This document shows, in pieces, positions 1,211-46,009 of a DNA stretch of 47,341 bases (positions are counted from its first letter, which is position 1; each line of letters opens with the position of its first letter). Location: positions 1 through 47,341 of IMG/VR virus record IMGVR_UViG_3300042887_002465; one strand, 5' to 3'. The notes under the pieces were generated by a model, which did no database searches, was not told the origin of the DNA, and saw only the letters and a list, made by a program, of their open reading frames with translations. A program made the translations under genes and the position numbers. The DNA comes from a virus.

Positions 1211-1588
1211 TTAGTCTCTGTTTCTGCAATGTCTTTTTCCTGTAAGGTATGGTTTAGGACAAGATGTCCCTTTAACATGCTTATGTCCACACTTACCACA
1301 ACAAGTACTTGTTCCTTCGTTCATAGTATCACCACCACAACTCATACAATCTTGCTCTGGCGAGTACATATGGTTCTTGTGCGCTGCTTGAATGTAGTCA
1401 GCTGCCTTGGTAATCTTCGATTGTACCCAACCTTCTAATTCCTTAGGTCTTTCGTTTTCTAAGTGTTGAGCCAACTCCGCAGCCATATTAGCTATTGCTC
1501 TTAGGTCTGTAATTGCCATTTCTACCTCATGGTCATCCATAGGCATACTTGGGCCCATCATGTTCTCTAGAATCTTCTTGAATTTCAT
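1211..1588 (-). CDS. 125-residue protein with C-terminal zinc-binding cysteines
   Basis: The start ATG at 1588 overlaps the TGA of the upstream metallopeptidase (ATGA), which indicates translational coupling. The N-terminus MKFKKILENMMGP is short, basic and amphipathic. The middle (about residues 20-75, including LRAIANMAAELAQHL and EGWVQSKITKAADYIQAAH) is helical and resembles a small helical family seen in marine myoviruses. The C-terminus holds C-x2-C, CC-x2-C and further Cys/His residues (CMSCGGD, CCGKCGHKHVKGTSC), consistent with a zinc ribbon. The zinc-ribbon reading comes directly from the cysteine spacing; the function is unknown. Confidence 0.7.
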   Translation of the reverse strand: MKFKKILENMMGPSMPMDDHEVEMAITDLRAIANMAAELAQHLENERPKELEGWVQSKITKAADYIQAAHKNHMYSPEQDCMSCGGDTMNEGTSTCCGKCGHKHVKGTSCPKPYLTGKRHCRNRD

Positions 1589-1989
1589 GCTTTGCTATAC
1601 TTTTGTTTGTCTGTAAAGTCTCTGAACATCATGTTGCCTCTTAGATTTGCATCCATTTCCATCTTACGAAGGTAAGGGTTGGTTTGTGCGTATGCTGGAT
1701 CTTCTGATATTGCTTTCTGAGTGTTGAAGAGACCTCTTAGATTTTGATCGTGGTGAATTAGCTCATGTGACAAGCTACGTAAAACATCCTTAGGATGTCT
1801 GTTCATTGTATACACGACAACCGTCATTGTCTTTGGATCGTAGTAACCAGTACTACCATAGATATCCTCTCCGTGCTGTGGGTCTGCTATAAACTTGAGC
1901 TTCGGTAGTGGATTCATCATCAGCCCATTCTGCTGATAATTCTCTATCATTTCCTTTAAGACTTTTTTAAATTTAGGGTCTTTGTGCAT
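1585..1989 (-). CDS. Zincin-type metallopeptidase (HELIHH)
   Basis: The protein has 134 residues. The motif SHELIHHDQNLRG gives an HExxH zinc site (H75, E76, H79), the mark of zincin metallopeptidases. ATG 1989 is preferred over the GTG at 2004, because the upstream bases are the TATTTATA motif at 1993-2000 plus ATC. The N-terminus DPKFKKVLKEMIENY is basic and helical and contains V-L-K-E, loosely like the leader family at 8857-10473. A late-type motif right at the start and the leader-like N-terminus suggest a virion-associated peptidase, but this is inference. It ends in a 4-base overlap with the next gene. Confidence 0.7.
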   Translation of the reverse strand: MHKDPKFKKVLKEMIENYQQNGLMMNPLPKLKFIADPQHGEDIYGSTGYYDPKTMTVVVYTMNRHPKDVLRSLSHELIHHDQNLRGLFNTQKAISEDPAYAQTNPYLRKMEMDANLRGNMMFRDFTDKQKYSKA

Positions 1990-1992
1990 GAT

Positions 1993-2000
1993 TATAAATA
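1993..2000 (-). promoter_or_regulatory. TATTTATA motif (possible late promoter)
   Basis: TATTTATA reads on the coding strand three bases before ATG 1989. No TTG lies 20 nt upstream, unlike the early-type elements elsewhere in the window. Confidence 0.35.
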
Positions 2001-2399
2001 TCACTCAAGGACGACAATCTTCTTATTTAATTTGCCTAATTTTGTTATGATGCTACCAGTCTTTTTGTCAGCACCAAACACTACACACATATCAACGTAA
2101 TCAGCATAGATACTATTACGCAAGAACATCTGCCTATTGGTATAGGGCTTTCCATACCAACTCTCAGGCATAACGCTATAGAGGTTCTTATTGGTGTGTG
2201 GTGCGTTCATTTCACGATAAGTGTAGCCAAACTCAATAGCATACTTCTTTACGTACTTGTCTGCTCCGAATGCTTCACCTAAACTTATTATTTCTATCTC
2301 TCCATCGAACTGCTTTCGAAGACCAAATATAAACTCTTTAATCTTGATCTTCCCCTCGTACAGTTTCGATCCAGTTACTCCTATTCTTAGTTTGCTCAT
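2001..2399 (-). CDS. SLOG / DUF2493-like nucleotide-binding protein
   Basis: The protein has 132 residues with a Rossmann-like layout. The opening strand and glycine turn is LRIGVTGSKLYEG. A second glycine segment, SLGEAFGADKYVKKYAIEFGY, corresponds to the GGARGAD...AERYA motif of DUF2493/SLOG proteins. A later NRQMFLRNSIYADYVDMCVVFG corresponds to the RNxxMxxxAD segment, followed by a GSIITKLGKL helix. Family members are thought to bind nucleotides or nucleotide-derived ligands. The start lies 62 bases inside the preceding M15 peptidase gene, a long overlap in another frame, so the two are likely co-translated. Role in this phage unknown. Confidence 0.65.
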   Translation of the reverse strand: MSKLRIGVTGSKLYEGKIKIKEFIFGLRKQFDGEIEIISLGEAFGADKYVKKYAIEFGYTYREMNAPHTNKNLYSVMPESWYGKPYTNRQMFLRNSIYADYVDMCVVFGADKKTGSIITKLGKLNKKIVVLE

Positions 2400-2874
2400 A
2401 TTTTGCTAATAAATCTATCATTGAATTTCCTAACAAATTCTGTACGTGGTATGGTTCAAAGTTAGTCCATCTCCATCCAGTATCCCATCCTTCTTCCTCA
2501 AACATAAACACTACTTTAAGCCATCTCTGACGCCAATACCAACGCTCATAAACATCTTCCCAAGTGAATAACGTTTTATTGAAATAAAGGCAAAAATCAA
2601 GGGCTAATCCGTAATTATGAGCTGAATGTCCTGGTCTGTTATTTGTTAGAACCTGGCCAGGTAAGTCTCTTCCATAGCGATACATTAGCTCTTGATCCTT
2701 TAATGGTCTTGTACCCCACATAATGTATAGTGGAATACCTTTACTACGAGCCTTATTAAACACTCTCATAGCTGAGTCTATCAGTTTGGGATTAAGTGTG
2801 TTAATCCTTTGTACTGATAGAGAATCGAATGTGTCTGATGGCGTTACAACGCTACTCTTTGCTTTTTTGGACAT
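2338..2874 (-). CDS. M15-family peptidoglycan peptidase (endolysin candidate)
   Basis: The 178-residue protein carries the M15 (D-Ala-D-Ala carboxypeptidase / L-Ala-D-Glu endopeptidase) signature. SAHNYGLALDF gives the zinc ligands H86 and D93, and FEPYHVQ gives H143 with E140 as likely catalytic acid. The preceding RYGRDLPGQVLTNNRPGHS matches the T5-endolysin-like (M15C) loop. Such enzymes cut peptide stems of peptidoglycan and usually act as phage lysins. No signal peptide or membrane segment is visible, so a holin elsewhere would be needed. It overlaps the nuclease gene upstream by 31 bases and the SLOG gene downstream by 62 bases. Confidence 0.8.
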   Translation of the reverse strand: MSKKAKSSVVTPSDTFDSLSVQRINTLNPKLIDSAMRVFNKARSKGIPLYIMWGTRPLKDQELMYRYGRDLPGQVLTNNRPGHSAHNYGLALDFCLYFNKTLFTWEDVYERWYWRQRWLKVVFMFEEEGWDTGWRWTNFEPYHVQNLLGNSMIDLLAKYEQTKNRSNWIETVRGEDQD

Positions 2875-3716
2875 CTTTCTTCGTCTTTATCGTATGGACA
2901 GTATTTGCATAGCTTTTGTTTAAGTGCCATGTGATTAGTATCTGTGCGATATTCTCCTTCCTCAGTAAAGCACTCACTTATGAAGTTATCGATTAACTTA
3001 ACTACTTTGTTACGTGTAGGCTTTCCGCTTGCTGGTACAAAGGTCTGTATACGCTTTGGTGCAAACTCCAAGTCCTCACTAATCTTACGTCTAAGGATAA
3101 TATACTCCACATCAACACTTTCCACATCCACATCAAACTGCTTTGCATAGTACTCCTTGTATAATACAAGCTGAGCTGTCTTACCTATGTCAGCCTTCTG
3201 ATACTTGTTCCAACCAGATGTACTTGTCTTGATGTCGTATATCTTTACACGTTTGTTTACCTCATCAAACATTACCAAGTCAATATACCCAATAAAGTTA
3301 ATGTTAGGTCGTACTTGAATTTCTAATGGTATCTCACAGCCAACAAGCTTAGTTCCCTTTGTACTAAAGTAGGCAGTACGTTTCTTACGTAGGTAGTCTA
3401 ATATGACAATACCATCGTTATAGAACTCAGTGAGTTGTTGTGGTGTACTGAAATGAGCCTGTCCTTCTGTTAGAGACTGTTTGTACCCATTCATTAAACC
3501 TTCTTTGAGAGCTTTACCAAAGTCTATACTATTAGACTCCTTTACCGACTTTTCGTATACAACTGTCAACCAGTTTTGAATCGTCTCATGCATAACTGTC
3601 CCGAATAGAGTGTGTATGCTCTGCTCGTACTTACGCAATCCATCCACGTAATCCAACTTCCATCGATTCGGACATTGGTGATATAAGCTAAATTGTGAGT
3701 AGGATATTTTCTTCAT
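2844..3716 (-). CDS. Cas4/RecB-like PD-(D/E)XK exonuclease with probable Fe-S cluster
   Basis: The start is ATG 3716, giving 290 residues beginning MKKISYSQFSLYHQCPNRW. Upstream in-frame codons run through the terminator and promoter and are not coding. The nuclease core is visible as GTVMHETIQ (RecB motif I), NFIGYIDLVMF (metal-binding Asp) and VKIYDIKTS (D-x-K), followed by AQLVLYKEYYA. A cysteine in the N-terminal YHQCPNRW plus the C-terminal LCKYCPYDKDEERC matches the four-Cys iron-sulphur site of Cas4 and AddB-type nucleases. T4-like marine phages often carry a nuclease of this kind; a role in recombination or host DNA degradation is inferred. The -7 box is 4 nt from the ATG, so the mRNA may be leaderless. 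Confidence 0.85.
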   Translation of the reverse strand: MKKISYSQFSLYHQCPNRWKLDYVDGLRKYEQSIHTLFGTVMHETIQNWLTVVYEKSVKESNSIDFGKALKEGLMNGYKQSLTEGQAHFSTPQQLTEFYNDGIVILDYLRKKRTAYFSTKGTKLVGCEIPLEIQVRPNINFIGYIDLVMFDEVNKRVKIYDIKTSTSGWNKYQKADIGKTAQLVLYKEYYAKQFDVDVESVDVEYIILRRKISEDLEFAPKRIQTFVPASGKPTRNKVVKLIDNFISECFTEEGEYRTDTNHMALKQKLCKYCPYDKDEERCPKKQRVAL

Positions 3717-3720
3717 TCTA

Positions 3721-3751
3721 TAAATATACAAAAAAAAACCGAGCAAGTCAA
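3721..3751 (-). promoter_or_regulatory. Early-type promoter of the nuclease gene
   Basis: On the coding strand TTG (3751-3749), 20 bases, then TATATTTA (3728-3721), then 4 bases to ATG 3716. The TTG lies inside the stem of the overlapping terminator. The element fits the Bacteroidota form TTG-N17-23-TAnnTTTG. TATTTATA also reads at 3726-3719. Confidence 0.65.
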
Positions 3752-3771
3752 CGGATGTCAACTGCCCGGTT
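3729..3771 (-). terminator. Rho-independent terminator after the groES-groEL-zinc ribbon genes
   Basis: Coding-strand ACCGGGCA pairs with TGCTCGGT (one G-U), extended inward by GTTGAC/GTTGAC around ATCC, and is followed by nine T. It closes the chaperonin operon and overlaps the next promoter. Confidence 0.85.
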
Positions 3772-3790
3772 TTAGCGTAACCTAGTTTTG

Positions 3791-4015
3791 TTATTCTTCC
3801 GGTAGGAAGTCTTTGTTTACGTGACCACACTTAGTGCAAGCAAATGCTTGTACTGGTACTACCATTTCCTGTCCGTTTGGAGACAAGAGCGCACTAAAAC
3901 TCTTTAATATGTGCACTACATTGAAATGGTTATGGCCGCATTCATCGCAGACTATCTCAGTTGACTGAGAAAAGTCTAATTGCATTTGTTGTTGTAACGG
4001 TTGCTTAGTATTCAT
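3791..4015 (-). CDS. Small zinc ribbon protein
   Basis: The 74-residue protein has two C-x2-C knuckles, CDECGHNHFN near residue 23 and CTKCGHVNKDF near residue 60, separated by a strand-rich segment (FSALLSPNGQEMVVPVQAF). This is a classic four-cysteine zinc ribbon. The LLSPxGQ linker between the knuckles is one I recognise from uncharacterised phage zinc ribbons. Its start overlaps the 3' end of groEL by 11 bases, so it is probably translated with the chaperonin. The function is unknown. Confidence 0.7.
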   Translation of the reverse strand: MNTKQPLQQQMQLDFSQSTEIVCDECGHNHFNVVHILKSFSALLSPNGQEMVVPVQAFACTKCGHVNKDFLPEE

Positions 4016-5621
4016 ACTGTGGTTGCTTTTCCTCTTCCTTCTCTTTCTCGATGCTAACTACACATTCTGTTGTCAAAAGTGTACCAGCAACTGAGCAAGC
4101 TAATTCTAAGGCTGTTCTTGTAACCTTGGTTGGGTCAATAATACCTGCTTGAATCATATCCACAACTTGGTTGTTGCGAGCATCATATCCTGCATTCTTA
4201 CCTTCACCTTCCGCTTTAATTTGCATTGCAACTGCTTCAGCATTCTTTCCTGCGTTCTCTAAGATTGCACGGAATGGTGCCTTACAAGCTTTCAATACTA
4301 CTTGGATTCCAAAGTTTTGATCTTCATTCTCAGCAGCTACTGATACGTTAGATGCAATAGTTTGTAAAGCAATACCACCACCTGGTACAATACCTTCTTC
4401 AACAGCAGCACGAGTAGCTTGAAGTGCATCATCAACACGGTCTTTCTTCTCTTTCAATTCGATCTCAGAAGCAGCACCAATGTTCAATACAGCTACACCA
4501 CCTACTAACTTACTCATACGCTCTTGTAAGTGTTGCTTATCGTACTCACTCTTTGCGTTATCGAATTGTGACTTAATGTCTTCGATACGAGCCTTGATAG
4601 CTTCTTCTTCTCCACCACCATCTACAATGATAGTTTCGTTTTGGCTAACAGTTACAGTACGTGCAGTTCCTAACATATCGATAGTCAACTTCTCAAGCTT
4701 CAATCCTTTAGCTGCACTGATAACAGTACCTCCAGTCAAGATTGCAATATCTTCTAAGTTAGCTGCCTTACGATCTCCAAAACCTGGTGCTTTGATAGCA
4801 CATACATTTAAGATACCACGAGCTTTGTTCAACACCATAGTAGCTAATGCTTCTCCATCTACGTCATCTGCAATGATAACAAGTGGCTTGCTCTGCTTAC
4901 TACAAGTCTCCAACAATGGAAGGATTTCTTTGATAGCGCTAATCTTCTTGTCATAGATCAAGATGTAAGGCTTCTCTAATGAAGTGGTCATTGTAGCTTG
5001 GTTAGATACAAAGTAAGGTGAAACGAATCCACGATCAATTTGCATACCCTCTACAATCTCTAATGTAGTCTCAGCTGTACGGCTTTCATCTACTTGGATA
5101 ACTCCATCCTTACCTACACTGTCCATAGCTTCTGCAATAATGTTACCAACACTATCATCGTTGTTTGCAGAAATTGTTGCTACTTGACGGATTTGGTCAT
5201 TAGTAGATACATCTGTTGATAAGCTACGCAATTCAGACACAATAGCTGATACAGCCTTGTCCATACCACGCTTCATCTCAACTGGATTAACTCCTGAGTT
5301 AAGGTGCTTCAGACCTTCGTTGTACATAGCTGCTGCCAATACTGTTGCAGTAGTTGTTCCATCTCCAGCTTGCTTTGCAGCACGCATAGATACTTCTTTA
5401 ATAACTTGAGCTCCCATATTCTCTACTGGATCCTTCAAGTTGATTTCTTTTGCTACAGACACACCATCCTTCGTAGATACTGGTGCTCCGTACTCCTTTT
5501 CAATCAACACAGTACGACCACATGGTCCTAAGGTTGATGATACCGCTGTTGCTAATTGATTAACACCAGAACGGATTTTCTCTCTTGCTTCCGAGTTGTA
5601 ATCTAGATTTTTAGTCTTCAT
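4005..5621 (-). CDS. groEL: Chaperonin GroEL (Cpn60)
   Basis: The 538-residue protein aligns along its length with bacterial GroEL (about 548 residues). Visible landmarks are the nucleotide site LGPCGRTVLI (normally LGPKGR, so K to C), the ATPase segment DGTTTATVLA with D87, KDGVSVAKEI, the apical domain from about 190 to 375, and EEGIVPGGG carrying the second ATPase loop. The C-terminus ends KEKEEEKQPQYEY and lacks the usual Gly-Gly-Met tail. It should form the folding ring with the GroES encoded immediately upstream (2-base gap). Phage-encoded complete chaperonin pairs are uncommon; the likely clients are phage structural proteins or enzymes, which is inference. Confidence 0.97.
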   Translation of the reverse strand: MKTKNLDYNSEAREKIRSGVNQLATAVSSTLGPCGRTVLIEKEYGAPVSTKDGVSVAKEINLKDPVENMGAQVIKEVSMRAAKQAGDGTTTATVLAAAMYNEGLKHLNSGVNPVEMKRGMDKAVSAIVSELRSLSTDVSTNDQIRQVATISANNDDSVGNIIAEAMDSVGKDGVIQVDESRTAETTLEIVEGMQIDRGFVSPYFVSNQATMTTSLEKPYILIYDKKISAIKEILPLLETCSKQSKPLVIIADDVDGEALATMVLNKARGILNVCAIKAPGFGDRKAANLEDIAILTGGTVISAAKGLKLEKLTIDMLGTARTVTVSQNETIIVDGGGEEEAIKARIEDIKSQFDNAKSEYDKQHLQERMSKLVGGVAVLNIGAASEIELKEKKDRVDDALQATRAAVEEGIVPGGGIALQTIASNVSVAAENEDQNFGIQVVLKACKAPFRAILENAGKNAEAVAMQIKAEGEGKNAGYDARNNQVVDMIQAGIIDPTKVTRTALELACSVAGTLLTTECVVSIEKEKEEEKQPQYEY

Positions 5622-5623
5622 GT

Positions 5624-5923
5624 TTATTGATTAATTTTAGTAATAACATCTCTCTCTTGTACCACTTGATACTCTTCGTTATCAATCTCTACCTTTTGTG
5701 CAGAGAAACGTTGGTACGCTATAACATCGCCAGGTTTAATCGTGGTCTCAATGAACAAGTCTACACCTGCCCAAAAACCTTTACCTGCGTAAAGTACTTC
5801 TGCTTTTAAACACTTCTTCTCCTCCATATCTGGAAGGATAATTCCACCTGCACTTACCTCATCCTGTTCAATAGGTCGGCAGATAAGTTTGTCGCCACAT
5901 GGCTCAAATAACTGTTTGCTCAT
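5624..5923 (-). CDS. groES: Co-chaperonin GroES (Cpn10)
   Basis: The 99-residue protein matches the length and layout of GroES. It has an opening strand DKLICRPIE, the mobile loop EVSAGGIILPDMEEKK (residues about 22-37, with the GGIIL contact to GroEL), PGDVIAYQRFSAQKVEIDNEEYQVV, and the closing strand RDVITKI. It lies 2 bases upstream of groEL and should cap the GroEL ring. Expression is predicted from the early-type promoter at 5945-5975, with a 21-base, A-rich leader that has no Shine-Dalgarno sequence. Confidence 0.96.
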   Translation of the reverse strand: MSKQLFEPCGDKLICRPIEQDEVSAGGIILPDMEEKKCLKAEVLYAGKGFWAGVDLFIETTIKPGDVIAYQRFSAQKVEIDNEEYQVVQERDVITKINQ

Positions 5924-5944
5924 AATTTGTTTTGATTTATTTAA

Positions 5945-5975
5945 CTAATATACTCCTAAAAACTCCTTAGGGCAA
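5945..5975 (-). promoter_or_regulatory. Early-type promoter of groES-groEL
   Basis: On the coding strand TTG (5975-5973), 20 bases, TATATTAG (5952-5945), then a 21-base leader to ATG 5923. The TTG-containing stretch CCCTTGCCCTAAGG is a weak inverted repeat followed by TTTTT and may also end the hsp20 transcript. Confidence 0.6.
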
Positions 5976-5982
5976 GGGTTTT

Positions 5983-6390
5983 TTACTTTATTTGTAAAGT
6001 TCTTGGTTTAGCTTCTTCTGCGAATGGGATTTGTATGTTTAACAATCCGTTCTCCATAGCAGCTGTACCTTTTGATAGGTCGTACTTAGATGAAATCTTG
6101 TAAGCTAGATTAAAGGAACGTCTTGATACGCCACGAGTTTGATACGTACGTTCTGTTAGTTCTTCTTGCTTTGGTTTACTGTAGGATATTTTAAGCACAT
6201 CGTGCTCAATGTTGATTTCCACTTCCTCTTTAGTTAGACCGGTACATGCGACTTCAAAGGTAAGTCCTTTCTTGTCTTCGTAAATGTCTACTGGGTGTGG
6301 TGCTTTGGCTTCTGATAGAATGTTGAAGCCTGATTGTGAATTGAATAAGTCCCTAAAAAGGACATCGAATGTTGTGAGTTCTCTGCTCAT
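5983..6390 (-). CDS. Small heat shock protein, Hsp20 / alpha-crystallin family
   Basis: The 135-residue protein begins MSRELTTFDVLFRDLF. The alpha-crystallin domain runs from HPVDIYEDKKGLTFEVACTG (about residue 32) through GLTKEEVEINIEHDVLKISY to the family signature region AAMENGLLNIQIPF (A-x-x-x-n-G-v-L), and ends with KPRTLQIK. Its length is typical of IbpA-like proteins. These ATP-independent chaperones hold unfolded proteins for refolding by other chaperones; here it is adjacent to groES-groEL. It has the clearest Shine-Dalgarno sequence I noticed in the window, AGGAGG 7 bases before the ATG. Confidence 0.92.
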   Translation of the reverse strand: MSRELTTFDVLFRDLFNSQSGFNILSEAKAPHPVDIYEDKKGLTFEVACTGLTKEEVEINIEHDVLKISYSKPKQEELTERTYQTRGVSRRSFNLAYKISSKYDLSKGTAAMENGLLNIQIPFAEEAKPRTLQIK

Positions 6391-6485
6391 TGTTTTACCT
6401 CCTAAGATGGTTAATGGTTAATAAATTGTTTGTTTTGAAACTCTCGCCCTAAGGTCGTTTCAGAAATAAATATATAGTGTTTTGA
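6391..6485 (-). promoter_or_regulatory. hsp20 leader with strong ribosome binding site
   Basis: The 95-base gap after the polymerase gene contains TATATATTTATT (about 6466-6477), a possible -7 box without a TTG at the usual distance. It also holds a six-base stem TGAAAC/GTTTCA around a 15-base loop, and AGGAGG at 6403-6398, 7 bases before ATG 6390. The strong ribosome binding site contrasts with the A-rich starts used elsewhere. Confidence 0.5.
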
Positions 6486-8783
6486 TTAAACGTGTCCTTC
6501 TCCAAAATTTTCTGCTACGTTTGGTTCCGCTATTAGTCCAGTTGCAATCTCTACTGTTGTCTCCATACACTCTTTTGTAATCTCTGCAGCTCTATCTACA
6601 CAGTTATCATTAGCGTTGATTACAAACTCATCGTGAATCTGTAACATGATCTGAGCATCTAGTCCTTCTTCTTTGAATCGCTTGTGGATTGCGATAGCTG
6701 ATCTGTTCATAATGCTTGCAGCCAATGATTGGATTTGGAAGTTCTTACAGTTGTTCAATCCGTTCTTGTATTCCATACGAATCATCTGTAGCTTCTTTAA
6801 CTCCTCTGCACTGCGCATAGACTTCTTTAAACGAAAGAACTCTCTTTGATCGAGTAAAGTGTCCTCCATACGCTCGTAAATCTTTTTAACCTTGTCTAAA
6901 TGTCGAATACGACCAGTCTTACTCTTTACATATCCAAACGTTTTAGCTCGTAACTCACTCTCAGCCATCCACTTTGCTAACTCAGGAAAACCTTCCAAGT
7001 AACCATCAATCAACACTTGTGCTTGGTCTGGTTTAATGTTTAGTGACTGACCTATCTGCCAAGCTCCTGCTCCGTATGGAATAGCAAGTGCAATACCTTT
7101 TGCACGTTGACGTAGCTCTGGTCTTACCTTCTTCACATAGTTTTCATCGTTCTTGTTTGCGCTCATACCTTTCAACTTGAAGGCTTGAATGGCTACGCGA
7201 CTGTATAAGTCTTCGTTGTGAATGAATACGTTGATTAGACTTGGGTCATTGCTTACTGATGCGAACACTCGTGGTTCAAGAGAGGATTGGTCACAAATAA
7301 TCAACTTACGACCATCTTCTGCTTTAATAAAGCTACGTAGAATGTTGTTGTACTTCAATACCAAGTCACTTACCTCTCCTTGTTCCAATACACGTGGCAT
7401 TTGCTGACAGTCAGAACTAAAACGTCCTGATGTAGTTCCATGCTGCTTGAAGTACCAGTAGTATCGTCCATCCTCACTATTGTCTAAGAAACGATCAATG
7501 TATGCTGAGTTGATCTTATTAAGCTTGTTGTAGTCACGAAGCTTTGCTGCCCATGTCCAATCCTTAGCTATCTCTTCAATTAAATCATCGTTGAATTGAT
7601 CTGTGCCCTTTCTCGTTTGTGAGATTGGTTTAATTCCCAAGTAATTGAAACATAAGTCAGCTAATTGTGATTTACTGCTGATGTTGATATACCCATCCTC
7701 TGTTTCTCTCAACAATTCCAAGCTAATACTCATAGCTAATTGTTCTCCTAATATCTTCTCATCACCACTATGTAAGAACTCTTTGACAGGTCCATCTGGT
7801 AATGTTGATAATGATTTAGCGTTAAGAGTAGCTCCTTTGTTGTTCTGAGGTAGTTCATACCCCATCTTCTCTATAAGCTTTTGTGCATACCTTCCTCTCT
7901 TGGATGGTGGGAAGTTCTTGTATGCTTTGATCATTATATACTCCTTAGCTTTTGGTTGGCTAATGATATCATCTGCAATCTCACTATGCAATCGTTTCAT
8001 CTCAGCCATGATGTCTTCCTTAACCTTCTTGATTTTAGGAATGTCCATCTCAGAGCCAAACTCTTCCATTTGGATAGTTACTGTCTTGTATAGTGGCATT
8101 ACTTCCTCTGTAAAGAAGAAATCCCATAGACCTTCTTCCTTAAGGATTGGTAAGTAGTGAGTCATAATGCGAAGAGTCAAGTCGGTATCTGCTGCTGCAT
8201 ATCGTCCTAACAACTCCATGTCAGCTTTAAAGATTTCAAAGTTCTCCTTTGTTACAGTACCCCCATTCCTCTTGATATTCTCTTTCATTAGGATTTGCTC
8301 TTCGTTCGCCTCTTTCTCAGCATCCAATCCTAATTGAGCTTGTAACTCGATAGCAGTGTCCTTCAAACCAAATGGTCCATCCTCTTTAAGAGTGTGACGT
8401 AGTAACATAGTATCACAATATAGAGCATCACGCAAGTCTACTCCATAGTAGTTCTTGGTGTACCGAATATCGAAAGATCCATTGTGCATCACAAGTCTCT
8501 TACCAGTAAGAAGGTTGATTAACTTCTTGGCTGCATCATCTGCTTTCATATCGCCAATGTGTAGGCAATCGAGTGTGCCTGCTTCTCTATTCCACTCCCA
8601 TGTTGGAAGGTAGTAACCTACTCCAATATCACCAGACACAGAGAACCCAATAATAGTACCAGTTCGAGGATTCAAACTAGTGGTCTCAGTATCGTATGCA
8701 ATGATGTCGCTGTTAACAATGTGTTGGTGTAACTCTATGAGTTGCTCCTTAGTTCTGACAATGATATAACTTTTTTCTTCCAT
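6486..8783 (-). CDS. Family A DNA polymerase with 3'-5' exonuclease
   Basis: The start is ATG 8783 (MEEKSYIIVRTKEQ), giving 765 residues. Codons upstream of it are promoter sequence. The exonuclease domain has DTET (D31, E33), NGSFD (N101-D105) and YAAADTDL. The polymerase domain has TSGRFS, motif A CDQSSLEPRVFAS, motif B RQRAKGIALAIPYG, and motif C LQIHDEFV. It lacks a 5'-3' nuclease domain; a separate RNase H/flap nuclease is at 23112. It is the probable replicative polymerase of this phage, unlike T4 itself, which uses a family B enzyme. The -7 box lies 4 nt from the ATG, so the mRNA is probably leaderless. Confidence 0.96.
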   Translation of the reverse strand: MEEKSYIIVRTKEQLIELHQHIVNSDIIAYDTETTSLNPRTGTIIGFSVSGDIGVGYYLPTWEWNREAGTLDCLHIGDMKADDAAKKLINLLTGKRLVMHNGSFDIRYTKNYYGVDLRDALYCDTMLLRHTLKEDGPFGLKDTAIELQAQLGLDAEKEANEEQILMKENIKRNGGTVTKENFEIFKADMELLGRYAAADTDLTLRIMTHYLPILKEEGLWDFFFTEEVMPLYKTVTIQMEEFGSEMDIPKIKKVKEDIMAEMKRLHSEIADDIISQPKAKEYIMIKAYKNFPPSKRGRYAQKLIEKMGYELPQNNKGATLNAKSLSTLPDGPVKEFLHSGDEKILGEQLAMSISLELLRETEDGYINISSKSQLADLCFNYLGIKPISQTRKGTDQFNDDLIEEIAKDWTWAAKLRDYNKLNKINSAYIDRFLDNSEDGRYYWYFKQHGTTSGRFSSDCQQMPRVLEQGEVSDLVLKYNNILRSFIKAEDGRKLIICDQSSLEPRVFASVSNDPSLINVFIHNEDLYSRVAIQAFKLKGMSANKNDENYVKKVRPELRQRAKGIALAIPYGAGAWQIGQSLNIKPDQAQVLIDGYLEGFPELAKWMAESELRAKTFGYVKSKTGRIRHLDKVKKIYERMEDTLLDQREFFRLKKSMRSAEELKKLQMIRMEYKNGLNNCKNFQIQSLAASIMNRSAIAIHKRFKEEGLDAQIMLQIHDEFVINANDNCVDRAAEITKECMETTVEIATGLIAEPNVAENFGEGHV

Positions 8784-8787
8784 AACT

Positions 8788-8818
8788 TTAATATACTCTA
8801 TAAAAAGCAAAAAGCCAA
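8788..8818 (-). promoter_or_regulatory. Early-type promoter of the DNA polymerase gene
   Basis: On the coding strand TTG (8818-8816), 20 bases, TATATTAA (8795-8788), then 4 bases to ATG 8783. The TTG is part of the 3' arm of the terminator of the upstream operon. Confidence 0.65.
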
Positions 8819-8832
8819 CACTTGGTTGGCTC
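8801..8832 (-). terminator. Rho-independent terminator after the leader-protein run
   Basis: AGCCAAC and GTTGGCT form a 7-bp stem (plus a flanking G-U) around a 5-base loop, followed by T-rich sequence with one GC step. It ends the operon that closes with the gene at 8857. Confidence 0.8.
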
Positions 8833-8856
8833 TTGCATATTCTGGGGGCGTGTAGT

Positions 8857-9249
8857 TTATTTTGCTATTGTCCAAATATAAAGCTCCTTCTCTAAATCGT
8901 CTTTAGGAGATATACGAGCTACTAATTGATAGTTCTTTGTGCCATCTAACTTTGACTTAACTTGTTGGAAAAGCTGACGTGCTTTGTTTACATCGCTTTG
9001 TGTCAAATCATCCTCTGCACTCTCTAATCCCATTGCTGGCATTTTTCCAATTGCTGCTTTTAGCTGGTCTAGGTTATTGTACTTTGCTACACCTTTTGCG
9101 TAGTCTACCGTAACAAATGGTGCATTGCTGTCAAAGACTCCAGCATCCTGCATAGCATCTAAGTGTTGTAAGCCTAGATCGCTTGCACTCTCTTTAAGAG
9201 CTCTGCGAACTTCTTCGCGTATTAGTCTTTTAAGTTTGATTACTGACAT
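8857..9249 (-). CDS. Leader-bearing small protein 1 (KLIREEV-type N-terminus)
   Basis: The 130-residue protein starts MSVIKLKRLIREEVRRALKE and then changes to unrelated sequence (SASDLGLQHLDAMQDAGVF...). The first 20 residues match the leaders of the three genes just upstream and of 13150-13641. The leader ends in L-K-E before S, compatible with the (L/I)-x-E cleavage rule of T4-type prohead proteases. The remainder is mixed alpha/beta with ISPKDDLEKELYIWTIAK at the C-terminus and is not recognised. It is the last gene before a terminator. A packaged, processed protein is inferred from the leader; the payload function is unknown. Confidence 0.7.
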   Translation of the reverse strand: MSVIKLKRLIREEVRRALKESASDLGLQHLDAMQDAGVFDSNAPFVTVDYAKGVAKYNNLDQLKAAIGKMPAMGLESAEDDLTQSDVNKARQLFQQVKSKLDGTKNYQLVARISPKDDLEKELYIWTIAK

Positions 9250-9257
9250 AGTGTATT

Positions 9258-9509
9258 TTATTTATCTAATCCTAATGCGATGATATACTCTTCCATCTCT
9301 TCTGGTCCTGCTTGTAGTAAGGTATCCATTAAGTGGGCTTGTGTAGCGTTTGGGTCATCGCAGACTACTAACGATACTTCTCTTTTTGCTGTTGGCGTAC
9401 TATTATATAGTGCCATTATTCTCTCGTAGTTTACATCTTCTTTTGGCATTTCGTTTAGGACTTTTCGTACCTCTTCGCGGATTAGTTTGCGAAACTCTGA
9501 TGCTTTCAT
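9258..9509 (-). CDS. Leader-bearing small protein 2 (KLIREEV-type N-terminus)
   Basis: The 83-residue protein opens with a near-consensus leader, F-R-KLIREEV-R-K followed by VLNE, then the short acidic payload MPKEDVNYERIMALYNSTPT... ending EEYIIALGLDK. Removal of the leader at LNE would leave about 63 residues. The ATG shares its A with the last base of the upstream gene's TAA stop (one-base overlap), and 8 bases separate it from the next gene, so the run is one transcription unit. No known domain is recognised in the payload. Confidence 0.7.
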   Translation of the reverse strand: MKASEFRKLIREEVRKVLNEMPKEDVNYERIMALYNSTPTAKREVSLVVCDDPNATQAHLMDTLLQAGPEEMEEYIIALGLDK

Positions 9510-9859
9510 TAATCTTTTGTATATCGGTTAATTAAATCTCCTAAAGATACATATGATCTGCCTCCACTATATCCTCGAGCTTCTGACATAGCTCTTAACA
9601 GCATTTTAGCTTCTGGAGAGTTCTCCATCTCCATGACCATTTTCTTGAGTTTAGCTTCGTATGTGAGTATTTTTGGAGCCATTTGTATAGCCAGGTCAAT
9701 TACCTTTTGACCATATCTCTTAACCATATCATCATCGTACTGAGTCTTTACACCAGAGTATCCGTATAGATCAGCTACCTTGTTTTCTAGACCACTTACC
9801 TCGCTCAAAGCTCCTTTGACTTCTTCGCGGATTAGTTTTTTGAATTGCGATGCTTTCAT
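9509..9859 (-). CDS. Leader-bearing small protein 3 (KLIREEV-type N-terminus)
   Basis: ATG 9859 is chosen because the encoded N-terminus (Q-F-KKLIREEV-KGALSE) aligns residue for residue with the neighbouring leaders. An upstream in-frame ATG at 9892 would add 11 residues copied from the 3' end of the previous gene. The 116-residue protein continues VSGLENKVADLYGYSG and is rich in helices (DLAIQMAPKILTYEAKLKKMVMEM), closing with GGRSYVSLGDLINRYTKD. L-S-E before V would be the cleavage site. Payload function is unknown. Confidence 0.7.
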   Translation of the reverse strand: MKASQFKKLIREEVKGALSEVSGLENKVADLYGYSGVKTQYDDDMVKRYGQKVIDLAIQMAPKILTYEAKLKKMVMEMENSPEAKMLLRAMSEARGYSGGRSYVSLGDLINRYTKD

Positions 9860-9870
9860 TTTTTTTATTT

Positions 9871-10473
9871 TTAACGTAAATCCAGAAACCATCCATTTTC
9901 TAAGGCCTCTCTTGGCATCTTGGTTGGTTTATCGTCTGCATAATCTGCTTCATAACGTAGAAAGCAGTTAGTACCTTCTATCTTTACTATGCTAGCAAAG
10001 TCTAAACCTGCAATCCTTACAAGATTATCACCAACTTTAAGTTTGGTTTGTGGAGTTATTCTTACCCACTTACCAGCTTTGAATGGCTTTATTGCTCTAG
10101 CATCCCCCCACCTTGGAAAGGCAGTTGGGTCTAAGTTGTCTTTGACATAAGCTATTAAGTCATCTACAGATCCTTGCAATGCACGATGTATAACAGTTAT
10201 TTTAGCAAGGCTTTCTAGCTCGTCTGGTTTTAACTTTCTACCTACTTTCTTTGCTCCTAACTTGTAGATTGCCATTAGTAAGTTAGCGGTATCCTTTTTA
10301 ACTTTGGTGTTGTTTGGGTAAGCGTTGAAGCGCTGTATAGCTTTGGTAAGAATGGTTTTCCACTGATCACCAGGGTTGGCAAAGTCGTAAGTAGTTGGAG
10401 CTGCCATTGGCGCTTCCATTATTGCTTTACTAACCTCCTCACGGATTAGCTTTTTAAATTCTGATGCTTTCAT
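9871..10473 (-). CDS. Leader-bearing protein 4, 200 residues
   Basis: This is the first and longest gene of the run. The leader E-F-KKLIREEV-SKAIME is followed by an Ala/Pro linker (APMAAPTTYDFANPG) and then a folded-looking domain of about 170 residues: a helical part (TILTKAIQRFNAYPN, KDTANLLMAIYKLGAKK) and a beta-rich C-terminus (KWVRITPQTKLKVGDNLVRIAG...GTNCFLRYEADY) that looks like a small barrel. No family is recognised. Cleavage after I-M-E is predicted from the T4-type rule. The upstream region has TATTTATA inside a 21-base block shared with the other isolated leader gene at 13641. Confidence 0.7.
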   Translation of the reverse strand: MKASEFKKLIREEVSKAIMEAPMAAPTTYDFANPGDQWKTILTKAIQRFNAYPNNTKVKKDTANLLMAIYKLGAKKVGRKLKPDELESLAKITVIHRALQGSVDDLIAYVKDNLDPTAFPRWGDARAIKPFKAGKWVRITPQTKLKVGDNLVRIAGLDFASIVKIEGTNCFLRYEADYADDKPTKMPREALENGWFLDLR

Positions 10474-10479
10474 TAAAAT

Positions 10480-10500
10480 TGATGTTTCCTATAAATAGTC
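10480..10500 (-). promoter_or_regulatory. Shared 21-base block with TATTTATA before leader genes
   Basis: The coding-strand block reads GACTATTTATAGG followed by AAACATCA and recurs exactly at 13653-13673. Both copies precede genes with the KLIREEV leader. No TTG lies 20 nt upstream, so it is placed in the putative late class. Confidence 0.5.
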
Positions 10501-11295
10501 AACTACTCCGTTAATACGACACTGTCCCTTCAGAAATTCCACGTTGCTCTTTACCAAGTCCATATTGATCTGACTCATGTCATATGTCTCCAAAAAGTTG
10601 TGTGGAGTAGGTATACGAGTAGTGTGATCGACGTTAAAGTCTTGATTGTGAGAAGCTGCAAGTACTGGGAATACTGAGTCTGTACTTCGCATTGCTGGAT
10701 GGTCATAGTAAGCAAACTCTGTTGGGTCTCCTTGACCTAAACAATGGATAGGCTTTAGTAATAGGTTATGCTCCTTCAAGTAGTCATAGGCCATATGACG
10801 AGCTTCCTTGATACCTTGATCATCTGAGAAGTCTTCTAACCAAGCTTGTGGTACAGCAATCTTAGAGAACCCAATAGTTTGAATCCAATCCTGCTCCAGT
10901 CCCCACTTGTATGCTTCCAACCAATCCTCCTTAGTCTTACCTTGTGGACAGAAGAAGATGTCAGTGCAATCCAATAAACCTTCTGCTTCCATACGGTCAC
11001 GGAACTTGATAGCATTAGCAATTGTAGCATCCTTATCGAATAGTACGTCTGGTGCAATTACTTCACTTGGAGCTAATTCCTTTACTACTTGGATCAATAC
11101 ATCCTCAGTCACTAAAGCTCGTTCAGCTGCTGAATTGTCTAATGTAATCCAACGTTCCAAGTCCTCATCCATTTGATCATAGATGAAGTTGCGATACTCT
11201 TCAGATTGTACCCACAAGTGGGCCAATACAAACAATCTATCCCCTAACTTCATAGGTTCAAGATTGCTTAATGGTGATATAACGTAAAAGTCCAT
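10489..11295 (-). CDS. DpdA-like 7-deazaguanine DNA transglycosylase (TGT fold)
   Basis: The 268-residue protein has features I associate with phage DpdA: TLDNSAAE with D53 at the nucleophile position, a PDV segment (EVIAPDVLFDKDAT, D83), FFCPQGKTKEDWLEAYKWG, IGFSKIAVP, and PIHCLGQGDP near the C-terminal side. Such enzymes are relatives of tRNA-guanine transglycosylase that swap guanine in DNA for a 7-deazaguanine base. FolE, QueD-like and QueE genes lie within 5 kb in the same direction, which strengthens the call. The start at 11295 (MDFYVISPLSNLEPMKLGDR) leaves 1 base after the previous gene. Another TGT-fold protein remains possible. Confidence 0.65.
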   Translation of the reverse strand: MDFYVISPLSNLEPMKLGDRLFVLAHLWVQSEEYRNFIYDQMDEDLERWITLDNSAAERALVTEDVLIQVVKELAPSEVIAPDVLFDKDATIANAIKFRDRMEAEGLLDCTDIFFCPQGKTKEDWLEAYKWGLEQDWIQTIGFSKIAVPQAWLEDFSDDQGIKEARHMAYDYLKEHNLLLKPIHCLGQGDPTEFAYYDHPAMRSTDSVFPVLAASHNQDFNVDHTTRIPTPHNFLETYDMSQINMDLVKSNVEFLKGQCRINGVVDYL

Positions 11296-11296
11296 C

Positions 11297-11500
11297 TTAG
11301 AATGTTAAGGTGTAGACTACTCTGATGACAATCTGATCAGGAGATAGGTCCTCTTTCAATTGCTTAGCTACTGCATAATCGATGCTAACGCCTGGCTTCC
11401 TTTCAATCCAAAGTTCATTAAGGAATGTTGATGATGTGACGTTACCTTCTTTGTTGCGTGTTACTTTGAACACTGCTACTTTTGCTTGTTCTTGATTCAT
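11297..11500 (-). CDS. 67-residue protein between folE and dpdA-like gene
   Basis: The preferred start is ATG 11500 (MNQEQAKVAVFKVTRNKEGN), preceded by the A-rich leader AACCAAATAAACAATAAC typical of this genome. The protein is compact, with the alternating pattern of a small alpha/beta or beta fold (VAVFKVTRNK, SSTFLNELWIERKPG, SIDYAVAKQLKEDLSPDQIVIRVVYTLTF). The frame is open further upstream to an ATG at 11668, which would add 56 residues of quite different, Ser/Thr/Gly-rich composition. I see no recognisable family. Position inside the deazaguanine operon suggests an accessory role, which is inference. Confidence 0.55.
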   Translation of the reverse strand: MNQEQAKVAVFKVTRNKEGNVTSSTFLNELWIERKPGVSIDYAVAKQLKEDLSPDQIVIRVVYTLTF

Positions 11501-11657
11501 GTTATTGTTTATTTGGTTACTATAAGTAATTGTTGTGCTATACGATGATGGTGCTGTTAATGTCAGTCCTGATGTTCCGTTTAGTGTCAGTCCTGATGAT
11601 CCGTTGGACAAAGGGATGCAACCACTAGTGAGGTCGCTAGGGGTTCCATAGTGAATT
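11501..11657 (-). other. Open 157-base stretch with fibre-like repeat, coding status unclear
   Basis: The stretch between folE and the 67-residue gene is open in the latter's frame from ATG 11668. It would encode a Ser/Gly/Thr-rich segment with two direct copies of an 8-residue unit, NGSSGLTL and NGTSGLTL, from a 24-base tandem repeat at about 11563-11610. Such repeats are typical of phage fibre proteins and unlike the enzymes around it. It may be an N-terminal extension, a relic of a fibre gene, or an untranslated leader. Confidence 0.4.
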
Positions 11658-12305
11658 TTAGGCTCCATAACGACTTTGATCTATAAGGTTAAAGAATTCT
11701 TGACGTGTACCAATCTCATTAGAGAAGAAGTATCCAGACATTTGTGAGGTCTTCATTACTGAGTCCTGCTTAATACCACGACACTTTACACAATTGTGTT
11801 GAGACTCAACTACTACAGCTACTCCACGATTACCTACACACAATTTATCAATGTGGTCGTGAATCTGCTTAGTCAAGCTCTCTTGGATATTAGGACGACG
11901 TGAGTAGAAGTCTACAATACGATTCAACTTACTCAATCCTACAACCAAATCATCTTTCTCCTTGCCTGGAATATAAGCTACGTGAGCTACTCCTGAGAAG
12001 GTTAGGTTATGATGCGCACACATACTCATTACTGGGATACGTGTTTGACAGATTAGTCCTGTATACCCTTCATCGTTAGGGAATGCAGTAATCTCTGGCT
12101 CTTCGCTAATTGAACCTGCGATAAGGTCATTCACCCAAGCTTTTGCTACACGGTAAGGTGTTCTATCGCTATGTGGATCTGCTTTCCAGTCAAACCCCAA
12201 TGCATTAAGGAACTGACCGTAATACTCAGCAGCTTGTTGGATCATTTGTTTCTTCTCTTCTTCTGTACGAGGCATATTGCCATTCGCTTTTTTAAGTAAC
12301 TCCAT
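11658..12305 (-). CDS. folE: GTP cyclohydrolase I
   Basis: The 215-residue protein is a clear type I enzyme. MSMCAHHNLTFSGVAHVAYIPG gives zinc-site C96 and H98/H99, VVGLSKLNRIVDFYSRRPNIQESLT is the central signature, and SQHNCVKCRGIKQDSVMKTS gives the second zinc cysteine C172. It converts GTP to 7,8-dihydroneopterin triphosphate, the first step toward both folate and 7-deazaguanines. With QueD and QueE nearby, the deazaguanine branch is the likely purpose. It starts 1 base after the upstream kinase gene's stop and its own stop overlaps the ATG at 11668. Confidence 0.96.
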   Translation of the reverse strand: MELLKKANGNMPRTEEEKKQMIQQAAEYYGQFLNALGFDWKADPHSDRTPYRVAKAWVNDLIAGSISEEPEITAFPNDEGYTGLICQTRIPVMSMCAHHNLTFSGVAHVAYIPGKEKDDLVVGLSKLNRIVDFYSRRPNIQESLTKQIHDHIDKLCVGNRGVAVVVESQHNCVKCRGIKQDSVMKTSQMSGYFFSNEIGTRQEFFNLIDQSRYGA

Positions 12306-12306
12306 A

Positions 12307-12750
12307 TTAGTTGTTTATTATTCTTAATTGTTTCTCAAATATACTAAAAATTTCCTGACATTCCAACTCAATTGGTTTGTTGTCAGCAACATCAAAAGGC
12401 TCTACGTCCTTTATGTCTCTACGAGATTCATATCGTCTCTTACGTTCTTCTACTGGAACCTCTAGCCAAACCAACTCTGCATCAGGATAGTGCTTCAGTA
12501 CCTCATGCACAATAGAAGCTTGTCTGATTCCATCTACAACAATGTGTGGATGCTCATCGATAATGTAATCGAGTGTATCGAGAATTGAGTTAGCAATCCT
12601 CTGGTCCAAGTGCATTGTGTTCTGTAGCTCTTCTCTGCTTGTGCTGTTGATAATATCTCTCACAAGATTAGATACCACAATACGACAAGAGTCTGGATAG
12701 TAGGAAGTCTTCCCACTACAAATACGTCCAAATAGTAATGTTACTCTCAT
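12307..12750 (-). CDS. P-loop nucleoside/nucleotide kinase-like protein
   Basis: The 147-residue protein opens MRVTLLFGRICSGKTSYY, a Walker A loop (G-x4-GKT/S) on the first strand. It continues with a helical lid region, IVVDGIRQASIVHEVLK (Walker B-like VVDG), LVWLEVPVEERKRRYESRR (an arginine-rich LID like that of dNMP and dephospho-CoA kinases), and a closing helix. This layout suits a small (deoxy)nucleoside monophosphate kinase, perhaps for an unusual nucleotide given the cluster, but substrate cannot be read from the sequence. The start overlaps the preceding stop by 4 bases (ATGA). Confidence 0.65.
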   Translation of the reverse strand: MRVTLLFGRICSGKTSYYPDSCRIVVSNLVRDIINSTSREELQNTMHLDQRIANSILDTLDYIIDEHPHIVVDGIRQASIVHEVLKHYPDAELVWLEVPVEERKRRYESRRDIKDVEPFDVADNKPIELECQEIFSIFEKQLRIINN

Positions 12751-13088
12751 ATCTCTACTATACCAAAAAATTCACCATCCTCTGATACTGAACAACGACA
12801 CAATCCAAAATAGTTTAATAAATCTTCGGCAATCATTTCGCAACTCATTGCTCCAAAGTTACAACATCCATAAGTTGGATCGTACCAAGTCTTAGCAACG
12901 TATTGTTTGATCTTGTGCTTAAAGTCGATGAACTCAATGTCACGATCTCCATGCTTTACCTCTGCTCTGCAGTTGATTTCAAAGGTATGTCTGTGTAAAT
13001 GCTTTAAGTATTCTACGTGAGGTAGATTACAATCTGGCCAGTGATGTAGGCCTTCAACGTCTAGTTTTACTTCTATGTACTTTCTCAT
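12747..13088 (-). CDS. 6-pyruvoyl-tetrahydropterin synthase / QueD-like protein (short paralogue)
   Basis: The 113-residue protein has a PTPS-type arrangement. GLHHWPDCNLPHVEYL is followed by HLHRHTFEINC (the H-x-H zinc strand), an acidic EFIDFKHKIKQYV segment like the QueD DFxxLK, SCEMIAEDLL (the conserved glutamate helix), and a closing CSVSEDGEFFGIVEI strand. It is shorter and more divergent than the second QueD at 15405. It may act on a pterin intermediate in the deazaguanine pathway or on a related substrate. The gene is first in its operon, with the -7 box 4 nt from ATG 13088, so the mRNA may be leaderless. Confidence 0.6.
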   Translation of the reverse strand: MRKYIEVKLDVEGLHHWPDCNLPHVEYLKHLHRHTFEINCRAEVKHGDRDIEFIDFKHKIKQYVAKTWYDPTYGCCNFGAMSCEMIAEDLLNYFGLCRCSVSEDGEFFGIVEI

Positions 13089-13092
13089 AACC

Positions 13093-13123
13093 TAAAGATA
13101 CAAAAAAAGGCTTACAAATGCAA
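13093..13123 (-). promoter_or_regulatory. Early-type promoter of the QueD-like/kinase/folE/dpdA operon
   Basis: On the coding strand TTG (13123-13121), 20 bases, TATCTTTA (13100-13093), then 4 bases to ATG 13088. The TTG is inside the terminator hairpin of the upstream gene. Confidence 0.6.
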
Positions 13124-13135
13124 GCCTTTTTCAAA
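13102..13135 (-). terminator. Rho-independent terminator after the 163-residue leader protein
   Basis: AAAAAGGCTT and AAGCCTTTTT form a 10-bp stem around GCATTTGT, running into a T tract. The A and T tracts on both sides could make it work in both directions. Confidence 0.85.
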
Positions 13136-13149
13136 TTATTTTTAACTCT

Positions 13150-13641
13150 TTACTTAATATCGCCTGTACGCAACATTGCTGATATGTCGGTAAAATATTG
13201 CATTTCTTCTGGAGTTAGCTTTGCCTTAATGTACTTAGCAATGTCAGTTAATTGATTTGCGCGTAAAGCATTGTTTTGTCTGGCTTTGGCTGTTATGCTA
13301 TCGCTATAAGGTGGTAAAGCTTTGTACATATCCTTAAGCTTTGTATCGTTTTGGAACTTTACCAATATTGGTTTAATAGTTTCTAAACGACCTTCTTTCT
13401 TTGCAATAGCAGCTGCTTGTTTTGCCTTCTTTTCCATTTTATCTGCTATAGCTCCGGCTGTTACTCCTAATGCACCTAACACAGCAGGTACACCAGTGAA
13501 TAATGCCCACAAGCCTGCAAGACCTCCTGCTACTCCTAAAGCGATATCACCAACTAAGGCCATATCTTCATTTAAACGTTGTTCGTTGACTGCGTTGCGA
13601 ACTTCTTCGCGTATTAGCTTTCTAAATTCTGTTGCTTTCAT
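13150..13641 (-). CDS. Leader-bearing protein 5 with hydrophobic segment
   Basis: The 163-residue protein carries the same N-terminal leader (EF-R-KLIREEV-RNAVNE), with V-N-E at the usual end and a second candidate cleavage site L-N-E four residues later. Next comes a long hydrophobic, Gly/Ala-rich stretch of about 40 residues (DIALGVAGGLAGLWALFTG, then PAVLGALGVTAGAIADK), long enough for one or two membrane passes, then a basic helix (KMEKKAKQAAAIAKKEGR) and a polar C-terminus. If packaged and processed it could insert into the host envelope during DNA entry; this is inference. A terminator follows directly. Confidence 0.7.
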   Translation of the reverse strand: MKATEFRKLIREEVRNAVNEQRLNEDMALVGDIALGVAGGLAGLWALFTGVPAVLGALGVTAGAIADKMEKKAKQAAAIAKKEGRLETIKPILVKFQNDTKLKDMYKALPPYSDSITAKARQNNALRANQLTDIAKYIKAKLTPEEMQYFTDISAMLRTGDIK

Positions 13642-13652
13642 TTTTTTGTTAA

Positions 13653-13673
13653 TGATGTTTCCTATAAATAGTC
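13653..13673 (-). promoter_or_regulatory. Second copy of the 21-base block with TATTTATA
   Basis: This block is identical to 10480-10500 and lies 11 bases upstream of ATG 13641. It is a putative late promoter for a leader-bearing gene. Confidence 0.5.
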
Positions 13674-35884: not shown

Positions 35885-36193
35885 TTAGAAAAACTTAGCC
35901 CAACGTGTTTTACCTACGTCATAGGCTAATAACTTTTTATACTTTCCTGGGTCGTTTTTTATATAGGAGGCTACTTTTGATACGAAGTCTTTTTCTGACA
36001 TACCATGCTTTTTAGCTAATGCTCTAAAGCTAGGGTCGTTGAATACTCTCGCATATTGATATTCTCCACGTCTGTTGATAACACCCTTAGCAATGTCCTC
36101 AGCCTTATCTAAAAGCCAATGAGTAAAATCAGCCTCAAGTAAAGCATCACGTTGTTCTTCTTGTACTATTTTGCGAAAAGTCTCTTTATCCAT
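35885..36193 (-). CDS. Leader-bearing small protein 6 (FRKIVQEE variant)
   Basis: From ATG 36193 the protein has 102 residues and begins MDKETFRKIVQEEQRDALLE, a variant of the KLIREEV leader with L-L-E at the expected end, before ADFTHWLLDKAEDIAKGVINR. An ATG three codons upstream (36202) is also possible. The remainder is helical and basic (ALAKKHGMSEKDFVSKVASYIKNDPGKYKKLL). It lies in the tail operon just before the tape measure gene, away from the main leader-gene run. The AATAAATA-type variant of the late motif (coding strand TATTTATT, 36207-36214) is upstream. Packaging is inferred from the leader. Confidence 0.65.
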   Translation of the reverse strand: MDKETFRKIVQEEQRDALLEADFTHWLLDKAEDIAKGVINRRGEYQYARVFNDPSFRALAKKHGMSEKDFVSKVASYIKNDPGKYKKLLAYDVGKTRWAKFF

Positions 36194-36237
36194 GATGCGC
36201 ATTTCTAATAAATATCAATCAAAGCAAAAAGCAGGCC

Positions 36238-37886: not shown

Positions 37887-37894
37887 TATAAATA
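37887..37894 (-). promoter_or_regulatory. TATTTATA motif before the tail tube gene
   Basis: GATATTTATAAC reads on the coding strand 14 bases before ATG 37872 and has no TTG 20 nt upstream. Tube protein is needed in excess, which suits a separate late promoter. Confidence 0.45.
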
Positions 37895-40340: not shown

Positions 40341-40348
40341 TATAAATA
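40341..40348 (-). promoter_or_regulatory. TATTTATA motif before the tail sheath gene
   Basis: ACTATTTATATG reads on the coding strand 25 bases before ATG 40315, with no TTG at the early-type distance. Confidence 0.45.
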
Positions 40349-46001: not shown

Positions 46002-46009
46002 TATAAATA
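46002..46009 (-). promoter_or_regulatory. TATTTATA motif before the 111-residue protein
   Basis: AGTATATTTATAGC reads on the coding strand 14 bases before ATG 45987, without a TTG at 20 nt. The ribosome binding site AAGGA lies between. Confidence 0.4.

Follow-up and report, generated by a model that had tools for sequence, protein, structure and literature searches.

A common N-terminal leader on unrelated proteins of a T4-like phage fragment, a probable capsid-targeting propeptide with a large cargo repertoire

Several small proteins encoded in an environmental viral contig begin with almost the same 20 residues and then diverge completely, which raises the question of what such a leader does. 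The window, i.e. the whole stretch of DNA analysed (47,341 bases), is a viral-contig fragment of a T4-like myophage. Five minus-strand ORFs carry the near-identical start MKxxEF[KR]KLIREEVxxx[LIV]xE. The five starts proposed by the first-pass annotation (9249, 9509, 9859, 10473 and 13641) are all correct and the leaders read as it described; the leader at 9859 starts within a longer ORF, open from 9892, at an internal ATG. Four of these ORFs abut or overlap in an operon-like arrangement (9249, 9509, 9859 and 10473), while the fifth (13641) lies alone, 3 kb away. The five ORFs, and a sixth with a weaker leader, are as follows.

9871 to 10473, minus strand: ORF of 200 aa; leader MKASEFKKLIREEVSKAIME followed by A (codons 10414-10473); unrelated payload; heads the four-gene leader operon
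9509 to 9859, minus strand: ORF of 116 aa counted from the leader ATG, or 127 aa if read from 9892; leader MKASQFKKLIREEVKGALSE followed by V (9800-9859)
9258 to 9509, minus strand: ORF of 83 aa; leader MKASEFRKLIREEVRKVLNE followed by M (9450-9509)
8857 to 9249, minus strand: ORF of 130 aa; leader MSVIKLKRLIREEVRRALKE followed by S (9190-9249)
13150 to 13641, minus strand: ORF of 163 aa; leader MKATEFRKLIREEVRNAVNEQRLNE followed by D (13567-13641), then a hydrophobic Gly-rich segment
35885 to 36193, minus strand: sixth ORF, 102 aa from 36193; weaker leader MDKETFRKIVQEEQRDALLE followed by A, then a conserved domain; in the tail module

Scored with a position-specific profile made from 104 leaders outside the window, the five ORFs reach 37.7-49.1, whereas the top score among 1,773 internal control windows is 8.0. 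Past the leader the sequences are indeed unrelated, as had been claimed: no Pfam or PHROG family is common to the five payloads, scans of the window payloads against both collections gave nothing usable, and a database search with the 10473 protein found loci that match its first 26-34 residues only. The annotation had also noted that the core DNA is similar. This is partly right, since within the window matching residues share 64 codons against 48.5 predicted by codon usage (P=0.009); across phages, however, synonymous codons vary freely, so that the peptide is what is conserved. The AlphaFold model of the 10473 protein, computed without an alignment, is poor (pLDDT 43), and a low-confidence prediction of the isolated leader as a short helix is suggestive.

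The sixth gene (36193), which the same annotation had added to the family, scores under the cut-off for the leader. Its homologues have N-termini that vary in length and sequence and retain a hydrophobic-x-E just before the conserved domain. It is a weaker case of the leader. The domain itself is seemingly tandem-duplicated in L033, L035, L038 and L105, which are homologues of window 35885-36202.

Read from their translations, other genes of the window encode a tail tube, a tape measure, a DNA polymerase A, a RecA-like protein, a helicase, GroEL/GroES and queuosine and folate functions, in addition to a tail sheath, whose name alone does not depend on such a reading. No capsid, portal or protease gene was seen in the 47-kb window. 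An 8-nt box, TATTTATA, occurs in 11 copies (1990-46009, minus strand), all on the coding strand and all at most 45 nt upstream of a gene start. Copies bearing on the present question are listed below.

10490 to 10497, minus strand: TATTTATA box before the 10473 leader operon
13663 to 13670, minus strand: TATTTATA box before the 13641 leader gene, within GACTATTTATAGGAAACATCA
36207 to 36214, minus strand: TATTTATT, differing from the box by one base, ahead of the sixth gene
37887 to 37894, minus strand: TATTTATA box before the tail-tube gene, a reference for late structural genes
40341 to 40348 and 46002 to 46009, minus strand: TATTTATA boxes before the tail sheath gene and before 45987

Because the box precedes structural genes, it is a putative phage-specific late promoter. 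Several relatives likewise show an enrichment of the box ahead of genes, and among the matches listed 26% of leader genes have it upstream, whereas the figure is 10.5% for other ORFs and 1.4% for random windows. The 21-nt promoter-like stretch GACTATTTATAGGAAACATCA is identical upstream of 10473 and 13641, and promoter and leader therefore look like one duplicated cassette. Stretches like TTTTTTTGTATCTTTAG upstream of 13088 and 26078 (minus strand) resemble Bacteroidota-type promoters, a likeness that hints at a Bacteroidota host.

A degenerate DNA pattern of the leader, spanning residues 1-13 only, matched at least 118 viral stretches, whereas a scrambled-order control with the same codons and degeneracy matched none. 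In 84,980 cellular genomes the pattern found four stretches, three of which give mere frames of 17-29 residues; the fourth is a genuine leader ORF, with two successive leaders, on a 3.2-kb contig, which is probably binned phage DNA because its payload also occurs in a viral contig. By this measure the leader is phage-specific. A short-query tblastn search against cultured phages gave one weak match (E=6), which led to the 484-kb phage LR756508. The cultured Flavobacterium phage immuto has a single leader-family gene, at 81.5 kb. When the leader alone was used to collect payloads, whose diversity the annotation had anticipated, at least 209 leader ORFs fell into at least 149 payload clusters, of which 110 are singletons among the matches listed. 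Among these matches, 141 payload representatives have a mean column identity of 4%, and the payloads have a median net charge of 0 (46% positive). Scans of the 141 representatives gave scattered lone matches, including a weak Lar-like restriction-alleviation match, HTH and EF-hand, and no common function.

Since the search pattern stops at residue 13, residues 14-20 provide an independent test of where the leader ends. Of the 104 distinct proteins among the matches listed, 80 have Glu at residue 20 (7 expected) and 85 have L, I or V at residue 18; the residue after the Glu position is mostly A, E, G or S, with no conservation further on. The first such site falls at residue 20 in 77 cases, against 3.8 expected when residues 14-34 are shuffled. 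About a quarter of the leaders listed are without Glu at this position, and most of those have a site nearby. In the window, the third-last leader position is L or I in four of the five leaders, and the 13641 gene has two consecutive sites, AVNE (with V) and RLNE (with L), in ...AVNEQRLNE/DMALVG (a slash marks the end of the leader). A homologue of the 13641 protein has one site, ...VVNE/DAALVG, directly before the common domain; the site thus stays at the boundary.

T4 gp21 cuts after [LI]-x-E (PMC9026906), and the annotation had invoked this type of protease (Pfam PF03420, peptidase S77). The window, at 47 kb a fragment that lacks the head genes, did not show a protease of its own. Among the matches listed, half of the leader contigs that reach 30 kb have the S77 domain (11 of 22), as against none of 22 random viral contigs with the same minimum length (Fisher P=2e-4). 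It was also present in 4 of the 15 sheath relatives and in each of the three large reference phages (Mel-JY01, immuto and LR756508). This association is a clade-level one and is by itself no proof that the protease cuts the leader. The 11 leader contigs lacking S77 were searched for a portal, a sheath and gp19 of the T4 type; 3 have a contractile tail and 8 showed no marker, so that the leader is not proven to be confined to T4-like phages. Furthermore, when the capsid proteins of ten such T4-like phages are aligned to T4 gp23, the T4 site FLTE/A (after residue 65, the propeptide length being taken from PMC9026906) coincides with a conserved Q[LI][ILV]xE/[AG], a motif that, on this alignment, appears to be the same as the one ending the leader.

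Some protease frames are themselves unusual. In LR756508.1 (156507-158102; L348/L349) the S77 protease matches as two pieces, separated by some 1 kb, of a single 576-aa open frame; an intein or inserted domain is the probable cause. The L089 contig (60,859 bases) has a similarly split S77 protease in a 600-aa frame. L195, on the 36,896-base contig of L091, has three in-frame TGA codons in the protease frame, and TGA is also where a nearby leader ORF stops; in this phage the codon may stand for an amino acid.

The leader genes appear from synteny to be accessory insertions. Indeed, most window genes are matched in order in a 127-kb relative (G001), at about 24-93% identity, and all five leader genes are missing from it. 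The 13150-13641 gene sits between queD-like and dCTP-deaminase-like genes whose G001 orthologues abut (46534/46534), as expected of a clean one-gene insertion. A distant relative has a homologue of the 9859 protein (54%, identical leader) whose gene neighbourhood is a different one. Of 18 leader-like ORFs in LR756508, where the first 240 kb were scanned, 15 lie within 53 kb around the terminase, portal, protease and capsid genes (4 expected). Some leader genes directly adjoin the protease gene (G037, G028, G033 and G026). Small head-module genes with shorter tags, e.g. MKLKKLIEN, MKLINLIPLREADE and MKFKKFIKEAEE, occur in G001 (L026 contig, 92242-107026) and G037 (L126 contig, 1908-12995). These tags recall the 10-residue T4 tag and are possibly a second class of packaging propeptide, to which window 1211-1588 (MKFKKILENM) may also belong.

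The first-pass annotation had taken the leader for a cargo-targeting tag, and this reading is supported by the unrelated payloads, the S77 protease, the match to the gp23 site, the accessory nature of the genes and the putative late promoters. Judged from sequence, the leader is likely (probability about 0.8) a capsid-targeting propeptide of the T4 type, with a sequence that is longer than and unrelated to that of T4 and with a large cargo repertoire. A short amphipathic helix (about residues 3-19) would bind the prohead core, and the leader would carry whatever protein follows it into the assembling head, where the phage S77 prohead protease would cut after the Glu of [LIV]-x-E (residue 20, or residue 25 at 13641). 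By analogy with T4, packaging and cleavage of the leader proteins are both likely. Once freed, the payload would stay beside the DNA inside the head and most likely enter the next host at infection, such ejection being, on the same analogy, somewhat less assured than packaging and cleavage. Anti-defence roles such as anti-restriction would be plausible for the payloads in the light of T4; they are unsupported by annotation, which offers the one weak Lar-like match only.

The leader could also direct proteins to the prohead and be cleaved there while the payloads are structural or assembly parts (core, scaffold or inside decoration). The adjacency of some leader genes to the protease gene, as named above, would fit such a role, as this is where T4 has its core genes 67 and 68. 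T4 IPIII, moreover, helps head assembly (PMC9026906). However, the leader genes of the window sit amid nucleotide-metabolism genes and are missing from the syntenic G001, and payload turnover is near-complete; at least 149 clusters from at least 209 ORFs, together with the G001 absence, suit exchangeable effectors better than structural parts, which we regard as unlikely. That the leader is instead an uncleaved docking helix for a phage or host partner (polymerase, membrane or tail), unrelated to the head, would agree with its low-confidence prediction as a short helix and with the place of the sixth gene in the tail module. The boundary Glu is, however, strongly conserved and followed by an A/G/S-rich residue, the leader end matches the processing site of the capsid protein, and leader-like ORFs crowd around head genes, all of which makes a docking role very improbable.

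Two further explanations were discarded. The common stretch might be a nucleic-acid element, DNA or RNA, that combines a promoter with a translation-start enhancer and spreads as a cassette, with the peptide incidental, as the identical 21-nt stretch before two leader genes and a codon agreement slightly above expectation might suggest; most leader genes, however, are without the promoter stretch, and residues are fixed while synonymous codons vary freely across phages, which rules this reading out. Chance likeness or a gene-calling artefact is ruled out in turn by the scrambled pattern (0 matches against at least 118) and by scores far over those of the controls.

If the leader is indeed an address label, a simple sequence search would name the injected proteins of many uncultured phages. 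Proteins so named would nearly all be of unknown function and would make a testable list of phage-borne proteins, and in T4-like phages that infect Bacteroidota and cyanobacteria the leader would serve as a packaging tag. A somewhat better than even case can be made for a broader claim, namely that a large environmental clade of the T4 superfamily, giants included, shares one exchangeable 20-residue packaging address, unlike the T4 tag, that loads well over 100 unrelated protein families into the head; this would be one of the largest hidden repertoires of injected effectors, and one readable from sequence. The principle of T4 internal proteins is already known. The tag sequence, its phage clade and the size of the cargo repertoire were not found in the literature searched, which is a part of the whole; a search of papers for the leader string returned nothing relevant.

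The closest known system is that of the T4 internal proteins, which a short N-terminal tag of 10-19 residues draws into the prohead core and which gp21 frees of the tag by a cut at [LI]-x-E (PMC9026906; PMC12373910). Many of them are ejected along with the DNA (PMC9026906), and IP1-3, which are injected and have only the leader in common, each block a different GmrSD restriction enzyme (PMC12373910). In T4 as in the window, a short N-terminal propeptide (the CTS of IPI, IPII, IPIII and Alt) stands on otherwise unrelated small accessory proteins, both peptides start with MK and end in hydrophobic-x-E/A, the IP genes lie outside the head module amid metabolic genes (ipII/ipIII adjoin denV and e), and an S77 protease is present in the phage group, here in other leader contigs and relatives. 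The two tags nevertheless have no sequence similarity (MKTYQEFIAE/A against MKASEFRKLIREEVRKVLNE); T4 IPI-III score about -25 with the leader profile, and a homology to the T4 CTS (MKT[YF]xEF...) was not found. The leader usually has 20 residues against the 10-19 of T4, its payload families are far more numerous and, unlike T4 internal proteins, not basic overall, and its phages belong to another lineage, with relatives that infect Flavobacterium and Microcystis.

Phage P1 packs its injected anti-restriction proteins DarA, DarB and Hdf in the head, where they serve to protect its DNA; we know of no short common leader of this kind on them. The inner-body and ejection proteins of phiKZ-like phages are large, partly paralogous inner-body components, unlike the small and unrelated leader proteins, and the leader phages differ from these giants in having a T4-type gp23, sheath and S77 protease. 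In phiKZ and SPN3US, head proteins are cut by a gp21-related protease, packaged with the DNA and ejected (PMC9026906, PMC5694885).
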